NCBI GenBank assembly: GCA_903832085.1
Contig: CAIKZZ010000009.1
Span: 1-64,000 of the forward strand
DNA length: 64,000 bases
DNA from: an uncultured Pseudomonadota bacterium
GTDB lineage: Bacteria; Pseudomonadota; Gammaproteobacteria; Steroidobacterales; Steroidobacteraceae
Direction of reading: 5' to 3'
The notes beneath the pieces are model-generated. The model ran no database searches, was not told where the DNA came from, and was given only the letters and a program-made list of their open reading frames with translations. Each line of letters begins with the position of its first letter. The first letter of the stretch is position 1. The position numbers were made by a program, and so were the translations under genes. Positions 55,323 through 60,996 of this stretch are shown in pieces.

Positions 55323-55522
55323 AGGGCGAGACTGGTGTGAGCGGCTGTAAAGAGGCCAATATACGTGAGTTCAGTCATCCGTGAGAACCGTCATGTCTTC
55401 TTCACCGGCAGGGACTACACTGCCATCTTTGGGCACACCCTGACACGTGGAGTTAGCCGCATGACGACGCAGGGGCACAGTGTCTGGTGTATGGCGATGG
55501 GCTGTAGGCGCGCGCATCCGTG

Positions 55523-56827
55523 ATGCCCGCATTGTCATTGCGGCGGCGGCAGCTCTCAGTCATGGTGCTGCTATTTGTCGGTTACGCCGCCTATTATTTT
55601 TGTCGTGCGGATCTGTCTGTTGCGACACCGCTGCTGGTCTTGGAGCTGCAGCAGCATGGCATGAGTGCGGATACGGCATTGATTCGTGTGGGCGCGATCT
55701 CGTCCGCCGGGATATTGGCGTATGCCTTGGGGAAGTTTTTCTTAGGTGGCTTTAGTGATCTGTGGGGCGGTAAGCGGGGGTTCTTAATCGGTCTTGGAGG
55801 CGCGATGGGGTTTACCTTGCTGTTTGCTGCCAGTGGTGCGCTGCCGCTATTTACTTTTGCCTGGATCGGCAATCGCCTCACGCAGTCGGTGGGTTGGGCA
55901 GGCTTACTGAAAGTGTCGGGCCGATGGTTTGATTACTCGTCCTATGGAATGGTCTTGGGTGTGTTGAGCTTAAGTTACTTAGTTGGCGATGCCTGCGCAC
56001 GCCAAGGGATGGGGATGCTCATCGATGCAGGCTATGGCTGGCGCAGCTTGTTTTGTTGTGCAGCGGCTGTAGTTGGGGTGTGTTTTATTGCAAACGCTGT
56101 GTGGCTACGCGAGTCGCGTGCCTTGCTGGGCTTTAGTGAGCCTGTCGTGAATCCGACGAATTTGTACGCGAGTCACGAGACCCATGCCTTAAGTCTGCGT
56201 ACTCTTGTGCTTCCCTTGTTGCGCAGCCGCGCGTTTTTGTTGGTGTGTGCGCTGTCATTTGGCTGCACCGTGGTGCGCGAGTCGTTTAATACGTGGACAC
56301 CAATGTATCTGCAGGGGCATCTAGGGTACACCACGGGGTCTGCAGCACGATTCAGCGCGATCTTCCCGGCGGTGGGTGCGATCTCGGTACTACTGGCTGG
56401 CTGGCTGAGTGATCGCATGGGTCTGCATGGTCGTGCCTTACTACTCACGGTGGGGTTGGTCGTGACGGCGCTTGCCTTAATGGCGTTAACCGGTGTGCCG
56501 GCATCCACGGGGGCGACCTTTGCGCCACTGATGCTGATCGGGTTAGTCGCCTTTGCTCTTCTGGGCCCGTATTCCTATTTGGGTGGTGCCTTTGCGCTTG
56601 ATTTTGGTGGACGGCGCGCGGGGGCCGCCTCCTCTGGCATCATTGATGGGGTTGGCTACTTTGGTGGCGTACTTGCGGGAGATAGTGTGGCGCGTGTGTC
56701 AGTGGCATTTGGTTGGCAGGGCGTTTTTGTGGCACTGGCTGTGGTCGCCGGCGTGTCGGCGATCGCGGCGGTGTGTTTGTACCGCACGCAGCGCGCAGTC
56801 AGTGCTGTGGCATCGGTGTCGTTATGA
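55523..56827 (+). CDS. OPA-type MFS transporter (GlpT/UhpT-like)
   Basis: 434 aa with about 12 membrane helices. The first helix, LFVGYAAYYFCRADLSVATP, is the diagnostic start of the organophosphate:phosphate antiporter family (GlpT, UhpT, PhnP-type importers). GGFSDLWGGKRGFLIG is the MFS loop between helices 2 and 3. ATG 55523 is preferred to GTG 55520. It overlaps the dioxygenase gene by 4 bases and is first in the operon, so import of an organophosphate or organophosphonate is the natural reading. Confidence 0.87.
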   Translation: MPALSLRRRQLSVMVLLFVGYAAYYFCRADLSVATPLLVLELQQHGMSADTALIRVGAISSAGILAYALGKFFLGGFSDLWGGKRGFLIGLGGAMGFTLLFAASGALPLFTFAWIGNRLTQSVGWAGLLKVSGRWFDYSSYGMVLGVLSLSYLVGDACARQGMGMLIDAGYGWRSLFCCAAAVVGVCFIANAVWLRESRALLGFSEPVVNPTNLYASHETHALSLRTLVLPLLRSRAFLLVCALSFGCTVVRESFNTWTPMYLQGHLGYTTGSAARFSAIFPAVGAISVLLAGWLSDRMGLHGRALLLTVGLVVTALALMALTGVPASTGATFAPLMLIGLVAFALLGPYSYLGGAFALDFGGRRAGAASSGIIDGVGYFGGVLAGDSVARVSVAFGWQGVFVALAVVAGVSAIAAVCLYRTQRAVSAVASVSL

Positions 56828-57945
56828 GCACGACGTGCCAGTTGCAGTACACGCCGACCGTCCTGACACTACACTTTAGCGACGGGAGTAGGGGTGAATT
56901 TTTAAGTGTGTGGTTGATCGATAATGACCCACAACACCGTGATGCGTACAGTGGTCAGCGCCTCGTCGATGTGGCTGACTTGCCGCTCGCGCGCACCATA
57001 CATGCTGCCCGTGTGGATGGCGGTGATGTCCTGATTGAATGGTCTGACTCGCACGTCACCACACGAGTGAGTGTGGAGTGGTTACATCAGCACCGCGCAC
57101 GAGCGGCGAGTGATGTGCACTATTGGCTAGACGGGGCGCAGCGAAACGCATTTGAGGACTGTGCGTGGTTGAGTCACAGCGCCTACGGCAACGATGCGGC
57201 ACAAACGGCGACATGGCTGCGTCGGTTGGTGACCGAGGGGATCGCTTTTTTAAGTGCTGTACCTACCCATGAGGGCGCCATTTTAGCGGCGGTTGCGCCC
57301 ATGGGTCATGTGATTGATACCAATTATGGGCGGTTGTTTGATGTGCGTGCGGTGGCGGTTGCCGAGAACCTTGCTTATACCGATCGAGGCTTAGGGTTGC
57401 ACACGGACAATCCATACCGCGATCCAGTGCCTGGTTTTCAGGCCTTGCAGTGTTTGCTCGCCTCCACTGAGGGCGGTGACAGCTTGTTTGCGGATGGCTG
57501 GGCGGTGGCTGAGCACTTGCGGGCGACGGATCCGGAGAGTTTTGCAACGCTCACGACCACGCCGGTGCCATTTTACTATCGCAGCGCGGGGGCTGAGCTT
57601 CGTGCCGAAAGACCGTTGATACAGCTGACGGCACGCGGCGTCGTGTGTGCGGTCCATTACAACAACCGCTCGATTGCGCCGTTACAACTCGAACACGCGC
57701 ACTTGCAGCGCTTTTATCATGCGTACCAACGTTTTGCGCTCTTACTGCGTGAGCCACGCTTGCAGATGCATTTGCGCTTGCGGCCTGGGGATCTGGTGGT
57801 GTTTGACAATCAGCGCATATTGCATGGACGCACGGCCTTTGCCTCGATGCGCGAAGCGCGGCATCTGCAAGGCTGCTACTTGAGTCGCGATAGCGTATTG
57901 AGTACTGCGGCGGTGCTGAATCGTGAGTACAGGACAGCGTGCTAG
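56824..57945 (+). CDS. GBBH/TauD-family Fe(II)/2-oxoglutarate oxygenase, TmpA-like
   Basis: 373 aa. ATG 56824 overlaps the transporter stop. Residues 1-100 form the GBBH_N (DUF971-like) domain, with WLIDNDPQHRDAYSGQR in place of the usual zinc-binding cysteine set. The catalytic domain has His193-Thr-Asp195 (LHTDNPYRDPVPGFQ) and distal His334 (RILHGRTAF) as iron ligands. Annotated normally as gamma-butyrobetaine dioxygenase, but TmpA from phosphonate degraders has the same architecture and also sits just before a PhnZ-like gene. Hydroxylation of an N-methylated aminoethylphosphonate at C1 is inferred from that context. Confidence 0.82.
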   Translation: MSTTCQLQYTPTVLTLHFSDGSRGEFLSVWLIDNDPQHRDAYSGQRLVDVADLPLARTIHAARVDGGDVLIEWSDSHVTTRVSVEWLHQHRARAASDVHYWLDGAQRNAFEDCAWLSHSAYGNDAAQTATWLRRLVTEGIAFLSAVPTHEGAILAAVAPMGHVIDTNYGRLFDVRAVAVAENLAYTDRGLGLHTDNPYRDPVPGFQALQCLLASTEGGDSLFADGWAVAEHLRATDPESFATLTTTPVPFYYRSAGAELRAERPLIQLTARGVVCAVHYNNRSIAPLQLEHAHLQRFYHAYQRFALLLREPRLQMHLRLRPGDLVVFDNQRILHGRTAFASMREARHLQGCYLSRDSVLSTAAVLNREYRTAC

Positions 57946-57954
57946 GAGTTGTTT

Positions 57955-58500
57955 ATGAGCGTGGTCAACGAAGTGTTTACATTGTTCTCGCGTCATGGCG
58001 CGGGGGCTTACTATGGCGAGTCCGTGTCGATGCTGGAGCATGCCTTGCAGGCTGCGCACTTTGCGCGCGAAGATGGCGCGCCGCCGCAGCTGATCGTGGC
58101 GGCATTGCTACACGATGTGGGGCACTTGCTTGAGGATGTGCCGGATGATATCGCGCAGTGGACGGAGGATGCGCATCACGAGACCGTGGGTGGCGCGTGG
58201 CTTGCGCGACGCTTTGGTGAGGGAGTCAGTGATCCGGTGCGGTTGCATGTGCCGGCGAAGCGTTATCTGTGTGCGACCGATTCCACCTATCTTTCACAGT
58301 TAAGCTCGGCGTCCGTGATCACCCTGAAATTACAAGGTGGGCCGATGAGTGTGGCTGAGGTTGCGGCTTTTGAGGCGGAACCCTCCTATCGTGAGGCGGT
58401 GCGAGTCCGTTTGTGTGACGATCGCGGCAAGGTGGCGGGTTTGCACACAGCGAGCTTGGCGAGCTACCGGCCATTGATCGAAGGATTGGCGCGCGGATAG
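57955..58500 (+). CDS. PhnZ/TmpB-like HD-domain mixed-valent diiron oxygenase
   Basis: 181 aa. ATG 57955 sits 6 bases after AGGAG. The sequence tracks PhnZ end to end: YYGE (Tyr19/Tyr20, Glu22), LEHAL (His29), LLHDVGH (His53-Asp54, His57), HHETVGG (His75), LHVPAKRYL (His98, Lys102), LKLQGGPMS and CDDRGK (Asp155). These line up with the PhnZ metal ligands and the Tyr/Glu/Lys substrate residues as I recall them. PhnZ-type enzymes cleave the C-P bond of 1-hydroxyphosphonates using O2, releasing phosphate. The ordinary HD phosphohydrolase call is less likely. Confidence 0.88.
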   Translation: MSVVNEVFTLFSRHGAGAYYGESVSMLEHALQAAHFAREDGAPPQLIVAALLHDVGHLLEDVPDDIAQWTEDAHHETVGGAWLARRFGEGVSDPVRLHVPAKRYLCATDSTYLSQLSSASVITLKLQGGPMSVAEVAAFEAEPSYREAVRVRLCDDRGKVAGLHTASLASYRPLIEGLARG

Positions 58501-58519
58501 CGTGGCGGGGGAGATTGGC

Positions 58520-59335
58520 ATGACGGATCGTTTGCCCACTATCAAAATTGATCAGCCGAGCGTGGTGGGCGAATACGACGAGGGGATACAGACGCTCCTG
58601 CAGTTACTGTGGGGCGATGGGTTCTTATCGCCCGGTGGCGCGGAAGAAGTCGCACTCCTATTGTTTGGTGAGTCCATTCAAGGGGCGCAGGTGCTCGATA
58701 TTGGTGCCGGGTTGGGAGCGGTGGATCAGTTACTCGTGAGTGTGCATGGGGCGGGCTCTGTGGTGGGGATCGACGTGGACCCGGCATTGCTCGCTCAAAT
58801 GGATGTGCGCATTGCGCGTGCGGGGCTGACCGATCGCATTCGTTCGCAGTGCGTGGTGCCGGGGCCTTTGCCGTTTGCCGATCACTCGTTTGATGTGGTG
58901 TTTTCCAAAGACTCTTTGGTCCAAATTCCGGATAAGCCCGCTATCTTTTGTGAGGTGTTGCGGGTGTTAAAACCGGGGGGCCGGTTTTTGGCGAGCGATT
59001 GGTTGCGTGGTGGTGAAGGCGCATACAGTGCTGAGATGCTGGAGTACTTTCGGCTTGAAGGGATTGCTTACAATATGGCATCGAGTCGTGAAAGTACGGC
59101 AGCGCTAAACGGCGCCGGCTTTACTCAGGTACAGATACAAGATCGACATGCGTGGTATCAGACGCTTGCTGAGCAGGAACTCGCATCGATTGCAGGTCCT
59201 TTATATCCGTTGATGGTTGCACGGCTAGGGCGTGAGAAAGCCGAGCACTTTGTAGCGAACTGGCGGCAGCTGGTGCTAGTCGTGCAGCGTGGCGAATTGC
59301 GACCCACTCACTTAAAAGCGGTTAAGCCCTGGTGA
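58520..59335 (+). CDS. Phosphoethanolamine-N-methyltransferase-like SAM enzyme
   Basis: 271 aa. ATG 58520 follows a GGGGGAG site; the frame is open from GTG 58502. VLDIGAGLGAVDQLL is the SAM loop (motif I), VVGIDVDPALL motif II. YDEGIQTLLQLLWGDGFLSPGG before it and SKDSLVQIPDKPAIFCEV after it match the plant and Plasmodium phosphoethanolamine methyltransferase pattern. It ends overlapping the MHS transporter. In this operon it may methylate the amino group of 2-aminoethylphosphonate or phosphoethanolamine; this is inference. Confidence 0.83.
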   Translation: MTDRLPTIKIDQPSVVGEYDEGIQTLLQLLWGDGFLSPGGAEEVALLLFGESIQGAQVLDIGAGLGAVDQLLVSVHGAGSVVGIDVDPALLAQMDVRIARAGLTDRIRSQCVVPGPLPFADHSFDVVFSKDSLVQIPDKPAIFCEVLRVLKPGGRFLASDWLRGGEGAYSAEMLEYFRLEGIAYNMASSRESTAALNGAGFTQVQIQDRHAWYQTLAEQELASIAGPLYPLMVARLGREKAEHFVANWRQLVLVVQRGELRPTHLKAVKPW

Positions 59336-60996
59336 CGCCCGTAATGCCAGAGCAGCAACGACACTTGCTGCCGCGGGTCGTAATCGCTGCGTCATTAGGA
59401 GCCTTGTTTGAGTGGTATGACTTTTATTTGTATGGCTCGCTCGCGACCGTTCTCGCAAAACAATTCTTTTCAGGGCTGGAGCCGAGCAGCGCCTTTATTT
59501 TGACCTTGCTGGCCTTTGCTGCGGGTTTTGTCGTGCGACCCTTTGGCGCATTGGTGTTTGGACGACTCGGTGACCGCGCCGGCCGTAAATACACATTTTT
59601 GATTACGCTCATGATGATGGGTGTCGCGACCTTTTTGGTCGGCTTGTTACCAAATTATGCAACAGCTGGCGTCTATGCGCCGATTGCGCTGGTGGTGTTA
59701 CGCATGGTGCAGGGGTTGGCTCTCGGTGGCGAGTATGGTGGTGCTGCAACCTATGTGGCAGAGCATGTGCCGCCGGAGCGTCGTGCCGCGGCCACTAGTT
59801 GGATTCAGATGACGGGGTCGTTCGGCCTGATGTTGTCTTTGAGTGTCATTTTATTGTGTCGCTACCAACTTGGAGAGGCGTTTGATGTGTGGGGTTGGCG
59901 CATCCCGTTTTTATTCTCTGCACTGTTGCTGTGCGTGTCGGTCTATGTGCGATTGCAGTTGCAGGAGTCGCCGGTATTTTTGGCGATGAAAGCGGCGGGC
60001 AAAACCTCGCAAGCGCCATTGAGCGAGGCTTTTGGCCATTGGCGTTATGTGCGCGTGGTGTTGTGTGCGTTGTTTGGACTCGCTGTGGGACAGGCGATGG
60101 TGACGTACACCGGTGAGATTTACGTGTTGTACTTTTTGACGGTGAGTCTTAAGGTCGATGCGTCCACAGTCAATGAGCTACTCGTCGCGGCACTCGCGAT
60201 CGGCACCCCATTGACATGGGTGGCGGGATACTTGGCGGATCGGATTGGGCGCAAGACAGTGATTTTGGTGGGCTGTTTTTTGGCAGCCGTCACGTTCATG
60301 CCGATCTTTAAAGCGCTGACACACTATGCGAATCCTGCCTTGGAATCCGCCATTTTGCATGCGCCAGTGGTGGTGTGGGCTGATCCGCATCGTTGCAGTA
60401 TGCAGTTTGATCCGATAGGGAAAGCGCGTTTCACAACGTCGTGCGATGTTGTAAAAAGTGCGTTGGCACGTGGTGGCATTCCATACACCAATATTGATTT
60501 ACCAGCAGGACAGAGCGCGCGCATCCGGGTTGGTGAGCGCGACCTATCGGTCTTTGAGGGCAGCGCCTTGCGTGTGGTCGACTTTGATCGCAGGAATGCA
60601 GCCTTTCGGTCGGATCTGACGCATCTATTGGGGGAGGCGGGTTACCCGCTGCGTGCAGTCCCACAGGATGTGAATCATTGGGCGCTGTTGGGCTTACTGA
60701 CGCTGCTCATGAGCTATGTGGCGATCGTTTATGGGCCTCTCGCGGCGTGGCTGGTGGAACTGTTCCCAGCACGGATTCGGTATAGCGCGATGTCCTTGCC
60801 GTATCATCTAGGCTTTGGGTGGTTTGGTGGCTTTTTACCGGCCATTGCGTTTATGTTGGTGGCGCAGTCTGGCGATATCTATGGAGGCTTGTGGTACCCC
60901 ATTGTGGCGGCGTTGGGCAGCGTGGCCATTGGGCTCCTGTGGTTGCCTGAGACCTTGCCACGCCATGGACTGGCAGCAGCGCCTATCGCCGAATAA
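59332..60996 (+). CDS. MHS-family transporter (ProP-like) with central soluble insertion
   Basis: 554 aa with 12 membrane helices. LFEWYDFYLYGSLATVLAK, RPFGALVFGRLGDRAGRK and GLALGGEYGGAATYVAEH are signatures of the metabolite:H+ symporter family (ProP, ShiA, KgtP). Residues about 340-445 are a hydrophilic insertion (for example VVWADPHRCSMQFDPIG) found in a subset of these proteins. GTG 59332 overlaps the methyltransferase stop; ATG 59344 is an alternative. It could move glycine betaine or the amine product. Its end overlaps the convergent VOC gene by 14 bases. Confidence 0.85.
   Translation: MTPVMPEQQRHLLPRVVIAASLGALFEWYDFYLYGSLATVLAKQFFSGLEPSSAFILTLLAFAAGFVVRPFGALVFGRLGDRAGRKYTFLITLMMMGVATFLVGLLPNYATAGVYAPIALVVLRMVQGLALGGEYGGAATYVAEHVPPERRAAATSWIQMTGSFGLMLSLSVILLCRYQLGEAFDVWGWRIPFLFSALLLCVSVYVRLQLQESPVFLAMKAAGKTSQAPLSEAFGHWRYVRVVLCALFGLAVGQAMVTYTGEIYVLYFLTVSLKVDASTVNELLVAALAIGTPLTWVAGYLADRIGRKTVILVGCFLAAVTFMPIFKALTHYANPALESAILHAPVVVWADPHRCSMQFDPIGKARFTTSCDVVKSALARGGIPYTNIDLPAGQSARIRVGERDLSVFEGSALRVVDFDRRNAAFRSDLTHLLGEAGYPLRAVPQDVNHWALLGLLTLLMSYVAIVYGPLAAWLVELFPARIRYSAMSLPYHLGFGWFGGFLPAIAFMLVAQSGDIYGGLWYPIVAALGSVAIGLLWLPETLPRHGLAAAPIAE

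Follow-up and report, generated by a model that had tools for sequence, protein, structure and literature searches.

In Leisingera caerulea, the enzymes TmpA and TmpB (PDB 6NPA-6NPD) convert 2-(trimethylamino)ethylphosphonate (TMAEP) to glycine betaine and phosphate, and the pair PhnY*/PhnZ, in which PhnY* is a PhyH-type enzyme, converts 2-aminoethylphosphonate (AEP) to glycine and phosphate. Here we describe a locus encoding relatives of these enzymes in an uncultured gammaproteobacterium of the family Steroidobacteraceae (assembly GCA_903832085.1, contig CAIKZZ010000009.1, positions 1 to 64,000; this whole stretch of 64,000 nucleotides is called the window below). Its core, a transporter followed by a TmpA-like dioxygenase and a TmpB-like HD protein, probably turns a methylated aminoethylphosphonate, most likely TMAEP, into phosphate and glycine betaine, to judge from homology and conserved residues.

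Layout of the locus

Positions 55520-60996 are filled by five open reading frames (ORFs) on the plus strand:

55523..56827, plus strand: OPA-like MFS transporter (relative of GlpT and SLC37); ATG at 55523 is the likely start, 55520 an alternative
56824..57945, plus strand: TmpA-like Fe(II)/2-oxoglutarate dioxygenase (TauD/BBOX-like); its ATG at 56824 overlaps the transporter stop
57955..58500, plus strand: TmpB-like HD-domain di-iron oxygenase; ATG at 57955 is the likely start, 57949 an alternative
58520..59335, plus strand: PMT-fold methyltransferase dependent on S-adenosylmethionine (SAM); ATG at 58520 is preferred, GTG at 58502 possible
59332..60996, plus strand: MHS-type MFS transporter (relative of ProP and the shikimate transporter); start at GTG 59332 or ATG 59344

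Depending on the start codons chosen, the junctions are, in order, a 4-base overlap, a gap of 3 or 9 bases, a gap of 1 or 19 bases, and a 4-base overlap or an 8-base gap. The initial annotation, made from the sequence, had described five genes joined by overlaps or gaps under 20 bases, and this spacing was confirmed, with all genes on the same strand and junctions of at most 19 bases. Its gene names agree with those given by Pfam and NCBIfam (MFS, TauD, HD, methyltransferase and MHS); the NCBIfam scores behind the names TmpA, TmpB, Phn-HD, OPA and MHS are all below their curated cut-offs.

The HD protein and its dioxygenase partner

In a search of the PDB at E <= 0.01, the HD protein matched only TmpB (6npa, 143.8 bits) and PhnZ (about 108 bits). 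Its structure model (predicted local distance difference test score, pLDDT, 93.7) gave ten Foldseek matches at E <= 0.001, three of them TmpB and seven PhnZ chains, with the next match at 0.07, and identity to TmpB in the Foldseek alignments was 40-41%. PhnZ and TmpB are described as having H...HD...H...H...D ligands and a YxxE lid (PMC8177086); the HD protein keeps these as H31, H55, D56, H77, H100 and D157 and as Y21xxE24. Ligands and lid are intact in each of the 68 HD rows with a TmpA-type partner gene, among them the window protein and TmpB. In rows where no TmpA-type gene was seen the ligands are present in 35/35, the lid Tyr in 34/35 and the Glu in 33/35; because unpaired rows carry the same residues, the HD protein is silent on substrate.

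The HD tree, from which 7 duplicates, 13 Mesorhizobium rows and 2 rows of fewer than 150 residues were left out, contains a window-type clade of 40 rows (97%) and a clade of 13 rows with Leisingera TmpB (99%). PhnZ (4MLM) stands separately with two plasmid proteins, a three-row set supported at 99% by the Shimodaira-Hasegawa-like approximate likelihood ratio test (SH-aLRT), with the warning that long branches meet there. The HD protein had been described as following PhnZ residue by residue, which holds for the active site; at the same time its nearest structure is TmpB (about 144 versus 108 bits) and the tree places it away from PhnZ. With Foldseek matches to TmpB and PhnZ alone and a tree position on the TmpB side, it does not fall among phosphohydrolases outside the PhnZ clade.

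The dioxygenase, which Pfam assigns to TauD (153.8 bits), is closest in the PDB to TmpA (6npb, 250 bits), followed by human BBOX (125 bits) and DfmD (108.6 bits), and this ranking bears out the earlier view that it is GBBH-like in the way that TmpA is. It keeps the Fe(II) facial triad of 2-oxoglutarate dioxygenases as H193, D195 and H334. The phosphonate contacts of TmpA are given as N187, N287 and R288 (PMC9296572). In the window protein all three are kept, at the aligned positions N182, N281 and R282. Y168, F172, Y185 and Y352 are likewise the same residues in TmpA, and we take them to be an aromatic cage, as in BBOX structures. Aromatic residues for the trimethyl group are described as common to BBOX, TmpA and DfmD (PMC9296572).

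In an alignment of 62 dioxygenases, N196 and R282 are present in all 54 rows paired with an HD gene (53 distinct; the window protein and TmpA among them) and in none of the eight others, namely BBOX, DfmD and six plasmid proteins for which the 8-kb stretch examined contains no HD gene. The 54 paired rows make up one side of a branch with an SH-aLRT value of 94, not marked as well supported, and the window-type proteins form their own 34-row clade (100%) on a stem of 1.19 (7 duplicate loci, 13 Mesorhizobium rows and 3 rows of fewer than 300 residues were left out of this tree). Judged by these aligned positions, the dioxygenase, unlike the HD protein, is informative about substrate.

Recurrence of the core

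We compared 40 family-type loci, after dropping 7 duplicates and excluding six loci by name; the identical pair L044/L149 was counted twice, and L076 was included though it lies outside the clade. In 35 of the 40 a TmpA gene is found no more than 5 kb from TmpB, and in 31 an OPA transporter is; these counts are lower bounds because contig edges cut several loci short. The recurrent core is thus transporter-TmpA-TmpB and not a chance neighbourhood. Besides the window, a methyltransferase gene occurs within the same distance in two of the 40 loci and an MHS gene in none.

The nearest loci come from proteobacterial or gammaproteobacterial metagenome-assembled genomes (MAGs), one of them labelled Steroidobacteraceae, and some of the isolate names contain bog, palsa or fen. 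In the literature consulted, TmpA/TmpB are described from one bacterium, L. caerulea. The divergent subfamily reported here has its own transporter and recurs across one bacterial family that includes bog, palsa and fen MAGs, and methylated aminophosphonates may therefore be a real nutrient there.

The two transporters and flanking genes

The OPA-like transporter scores 113.6 bits with Pfam MFS_1, 63 bits with SLC37A4 and 57.5 bits with GlpT (1pw4), and 132.8 bits with TIGR00881, below the cut-off of 407.75. AepP of Pseudomonas putida BIRD-1 is described as an OPA-family permease for 2AEP (PMC8316502), which makes phosphonate import by the window transporter plausible.

The MHS transporter reaches 331.2 bits with TIGR00883 (cut-off 443.45). 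Relatives of it were found in 52 of 120 family genomes and showed no association with TmpB (p 0.66), so we rejected this gene as part of the pathway and regard it as probably incidental. Its second half contains an extra stretch of about 100 residues (roughly residues 335-445), through which many family relatives align at nearly full length. Upstream of the OPA-like transporter lies an AMP-binding ligase gene in the opposite orientation, and on the other side of the locus the MHS gene is overlapped at its end by a convergent glyoxalase-like gene.

The methyltransferase

A profile built from 20 methyltransferase relatives matched plant PMT (155 bits) and Plasmodium PMT (92.6 bits) over nearly the full length, and the structure model (pLDDT 90.6) placed PMTs at all of Foldseek ranks 1-15, with template modelling scores of 0.80-0.84 by query; profile and fold both uphold the PMT-like label given earlier. 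The PMT residues Y19, D128, Y175 and Y181 align with Y25, D137, Y182 and Y190 of the window protein.

Presence of the gene was compared with that of TmpB in the 120 family genomes, calling the methyltransferase at E <= 1e-30 and TmpB at E <= 1e-25. The methyltransferase was found in 19 and TmpB in 26 (counting G055, where the match is partial, and G099, where it is 36%), with 17 genomes carrying both, 2 only the methyltransferase, 9 only TmpB and 92 neither (Fisher p 2.4e-12). The association persisted within carriers of the sarcosine oxidase gene SoxA (17, 2, 7 and 36 genomes; p 5.8e-8), within PhnW carriers (p 0.0011) and within non-carriers (2.1e-5). Since Fisher tests ignore descent, the fairer value is that from shuffling within genus (p 0.003; 83 genomes with a genus given). 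A control MFS gene from the window, present in 21 of the 120 genomes, showed no TmpB association (p 0.24), and among TmpB carriers PhnW was not associated with the methyltransferase.

The methyltransferase adjoins tmpB in three loci (the window, G007 and G011). A tree uniting these three copies in one clade was rejected by the approximately unbiased (AU) test (p 0.0145), and the clade appeared in 0% of 200 bootstrap trees. The window copy groups with the unlinked copies of G010, G008, G005 and others (87/88), and those of G007 and G011 pair together (84/74). The gene 3' of the methyltransferase is MHS in the window and, by name read from the sequence, glutamate-racemase-like in G007 and G011. 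From the tree, the methyltransferase probably joined tmpB twice, which suggests a functional tie; a possible alternative is that one methyltransferase copy was replaced by another. We regard the association of methyltransferase and TmpB as new and moderately supported.

Several observations weigh against a methyltransferase step in the pathway. In PMT, the catalytic dyad is Y19/H132 and the phosphobase anchors are R179/K247 (PMC6705855); of these four, the window protein keeps only the tyrosine, as Y25, and H132, R179, K247, Y27 and Y160 are replaced by Q141, E186, L257, L33 and W167. The nearest related locus, L032, has no methyltransferase after tmpB, and 17 of the 20 copies in the alignment lie away from tmpB, some of them near LysR and sarcosine-oxidase genes or near Pot-type transport genes (names read from sequence; the SoxA places were confirmed). 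Two carriers of the methyltransferase have no TmpB, one of which (G061) is rated 100% complete, and the well-supported branches of the tree would by themselves allow a single joining. Moreover, an association across the class was rejected: in a sample of 369 genomes, with the best six or fewer candidates per genome scored in one search, the methyltransferase was found in 5 and TmpB in 9, and among the matches listed both occur only in the window's genome and in G352. The link is therefore a family-level result.

A second methyltransferase type (four copies, 46-47% identical) carries His in place of Q141. Unlinked orthologues of the window methyltransferase adjoin LysR and sarcosine-oxidase genes in L133, L134 and L135, from three genomes of the same genus as the window. 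A methyltransferase 44% identical to that of the window lies in a Fuscovulum plasmid cluster (L150:1-10759) with two Rieske-type oxygenase subunits, an aminomethyltransferase-family protein, a polyamine ABC transporter, a DMSP-lyase-family protein and an amidohydrolase.

Fate of the product and other phosphonate genes

At E <= 1e-100 the SoxA model matched 62 of the 120 family genomes, 47 of them over the cut-off, and the window's genome (G000) has two matches, one over it. The Sox locus of this genome contains a GbdR-like regulator (406.3 bits, cut-off 480), SoxB and SoxA over their cut-offs, a PotF-like binding protein below its cut-off, and an 819-residue FAD/GcvT-type protein which we read as dimethylglycine-dehydrogenase-like, though no model of that name matched. 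With sarcosine-oxidase genes and a GbdR-like regulator in the genome, betaine may be consumed as a nutrient and not only stored, and betaine made at the locus could be demethylated to glycine.

The initial annotation had noted no phn C-P lyase gene in the window, and the same was found for the whole genome, in that the PhnJ model (PF06007) had no match at E <= 1e-20 in the assembly, which is rated 98.89% complete. The PhnW model had no match at E <= 1e-50 in this genome (PhnX was not searched for). Across the 120-genome sample, PhnW-AepZ was found in 18 of 26 TmpB carriers and 9 of 94 others (p 3e-9).

Proposed route and alternatives

The reactions, the transport step and the methyltransferase substrate proposed here are predictions; what we observed directly are gene order, homology, active-site residues, tree positions and co-occurrence. 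The OPA-like transporter would import a zwitterionic aminoalkylphosphonate, most likely TMAEP, which the TmpA-like dioxygenase, dependent on Fe(II), O2 and 2-oxoglutarate, would hydroxylate at the carbon adjoining the phosphorus atom. Phosphate and glycine betaine would then result from cleavage of the C-P bond by the TmpB-like HD protein, which would use O2 and a mixed-valent di-iron centre. The sarcosine-oxidising enzymes of the genome might demethylate this betaine as a source of carbon, nitrogen and one-carbon units. The import of a phosphonate and its conversion to phosphate and a betaine, as first proposed, is thus supported by homology and residues, while the proposed end in a compatible solute is called into question by the sarcosine-oxidase genes and the GbdR-like regulator.

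A number of results weigh against this reading. Both proteins fall short of the NCBI equivalog models, the dioxygenase with 357.1 bits against TmpA (NF049936, cut-off 400) and the HD protein with 193 bits against TmpB (NF049941, cut-off 300), so a substrate with another degree of methylation or another chain length may be used; the HD protein is also below the Phn-HD cut-off (TIGR03276, 204.6 versus 214.6 bits). No HD residues separating TmpB from PhnZ were found beyond the weak position 111, and the window and Leisingera TmpB clades join in a fork of unsettled order in which sisterhood was not recovered. Among the 54 paired dioxygenase rows, nine have Ser and one has Asp at the N281 position. 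No convincing Pho box was found upstream of the transporter in the window or 30 relatives, the best matches having 4-7 mismatches out of 14. There were 4 mismatches in the window (shuffle p 0.07) and 4 each in L032 and L035 (p 0.02 and 0.03), at differing positions, and the remaining relatives score like shuffled sequence. Because both proteins miss the equivalog cut-offs, we class the pair as a divergent sister subfamily that would work like TmpA/TmpB and not TmpA/TmpB themselves.

The missed cut-offs, the active site common to PhnZ and TmpB and the sarcosine-oxidase genes would also suit a pair acting on AEP (as PhnY/PhnZ do) or on a partly methylated form, with glycine, sarcosine or dimethylglycine as product and the methyltransferase working on that product or elsewhere. 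We consider this rather improbable, given a dioxygenase of BBOX/TmpA type with the N/N/R set of TmpA, the separate place of PhnZ in the HD tree (subject to the long-branch warning) and the description of TmpA as highly substrate-specific for the trimethyl form (PMC10574752). It is very improbable that the dioxygenase hydroxylates gamma-butyrobetaine or another carboxylate betaine while the HD protein acts on some other compound: such a role could be read from TIGR02409 (299 bits, itself below the cut-off of 414.75), but TmpA scores 125 bits above BBOX, R282 and N196 are missing from BBOX, DfmD and the six unpaired plasmid dioxygenases, and the dioxygenase gene lies by an HD gene in 35 of 40 loci.

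The methyltransferase may N-methylate AEP, or AEP already carrying one or two methyl groups, to give the trimethyl form accepted by TmpA; a full route from AEP to betaine, with up to three N-methylations before the TmpA/TmpB-like pair acts, is a tentative proposal that we think on balance unlikely. For an enzyme outside the phosphonate route, which would serve betaine, sarcosine or polyamine metabolism and co-occur with TmpB since these genomes eat methylated amines, the chances are in our view only a little short of even. All 19 methyltransferase carriers have SoxA-type genes, copies lie near Sox-type and Pot-type genes, the Fuscovulum relative sits in a Rieske/aminomethyltransferase/polyamine-ABC cluster, the PMT phosphate anchors are lost and the tie to TmpB fades outside the family; against this, the TmpB association persists within SoxA carriers and in both PhnW strata, and the gene probably moved beside tmpB twice. 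Similarly, the five genes had been proposed to act together as one operon. Their arrangement on one strand with such short junctions agrees with this, but a single functional unit of five is unsupported because the MHS transporter is unassociated with TmpB and the methyltransferase is accessory; that the five are in part mere neighbours and OPA-TmpA-TmpB alone cooperate is a serious possibility, if not the one we favour, in view of the scarcity of methyltransferase and MHS genes at the other loci.

If the AEP route were true, phosphorus would be gained by first building a quaternary amine, and the commonest natural phosphonate would become an osmolyte or one-carbon store. A methyltransferase feeding the pair would amount to an N-methylation route for AEP, through which a known enzyme pair reaches a far commoner substrate. 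In the titles and abstract openings of the literature, with few subscription papers covered, we found nothing on AEP N-methylation feeding catabolism.

Comparison with known systems

Relatives of the HD protein also occur in other settings. On plasmids of Variovorax (L162:4992-5540) and Nostoc (L163:4989-5549), PhnZ/TmpB-family HD oxygenases lie in or adjoin C-P lyase operons with no TmpA-type partner seen, the Nostoc operon also having a FosA-like gene. On two further plasmids (L169:2818-5555 and L170:2777-5552) an HD oxygenase gene is divergent from a pair of phnX and a TIGR03364 FAD-oxidoreductase, an arrangement that resembles Achromobacter clusters as far as these are described in PMC11203657.

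The window HD protein shares with PhnZ the HD fold, the YxxE lid and the di-iron ligands; unlike in PhnY*/PhnZ, its partner is a TauD/BBOX-type dioxygenase, and PhnZ stands apart in the tree. As described for AepP, an OPA/GlpT-type MFS transporter lies beside phosphonate catabolism genes, but the partner enzymes of AepP are PhnWAY, PhnWX or putative ones (PMC8316502). The methyltransferase has the fold of PMT and matches its profile at full length while differing from it at the five replaced positions. DfmD, from dehydrofosmidomycin biosynthesis, works on TMAEP, a one-carbon unit of which comes from SAM, and relatives in the DfmD clade are reported to sit with putative SAM N-methyltransferases (PMC9296572); DfmD catalyses a biosynthetic rearrangement, and the window dioxygenase scores 108.6 bits to it versus 250 to TmpA. 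The closest resemblance is to TmpA/TmpB of Leisingera, in the enzyme pair itself, in the order of tmpA before tmpB and in the active-site and phosphonate-contact residues. According to PMC10574752 the published genes form an operon of two, whereas the window pair comes after an OPA-like transporter gene and before genes for a methyltransferase and an MHS transporter.

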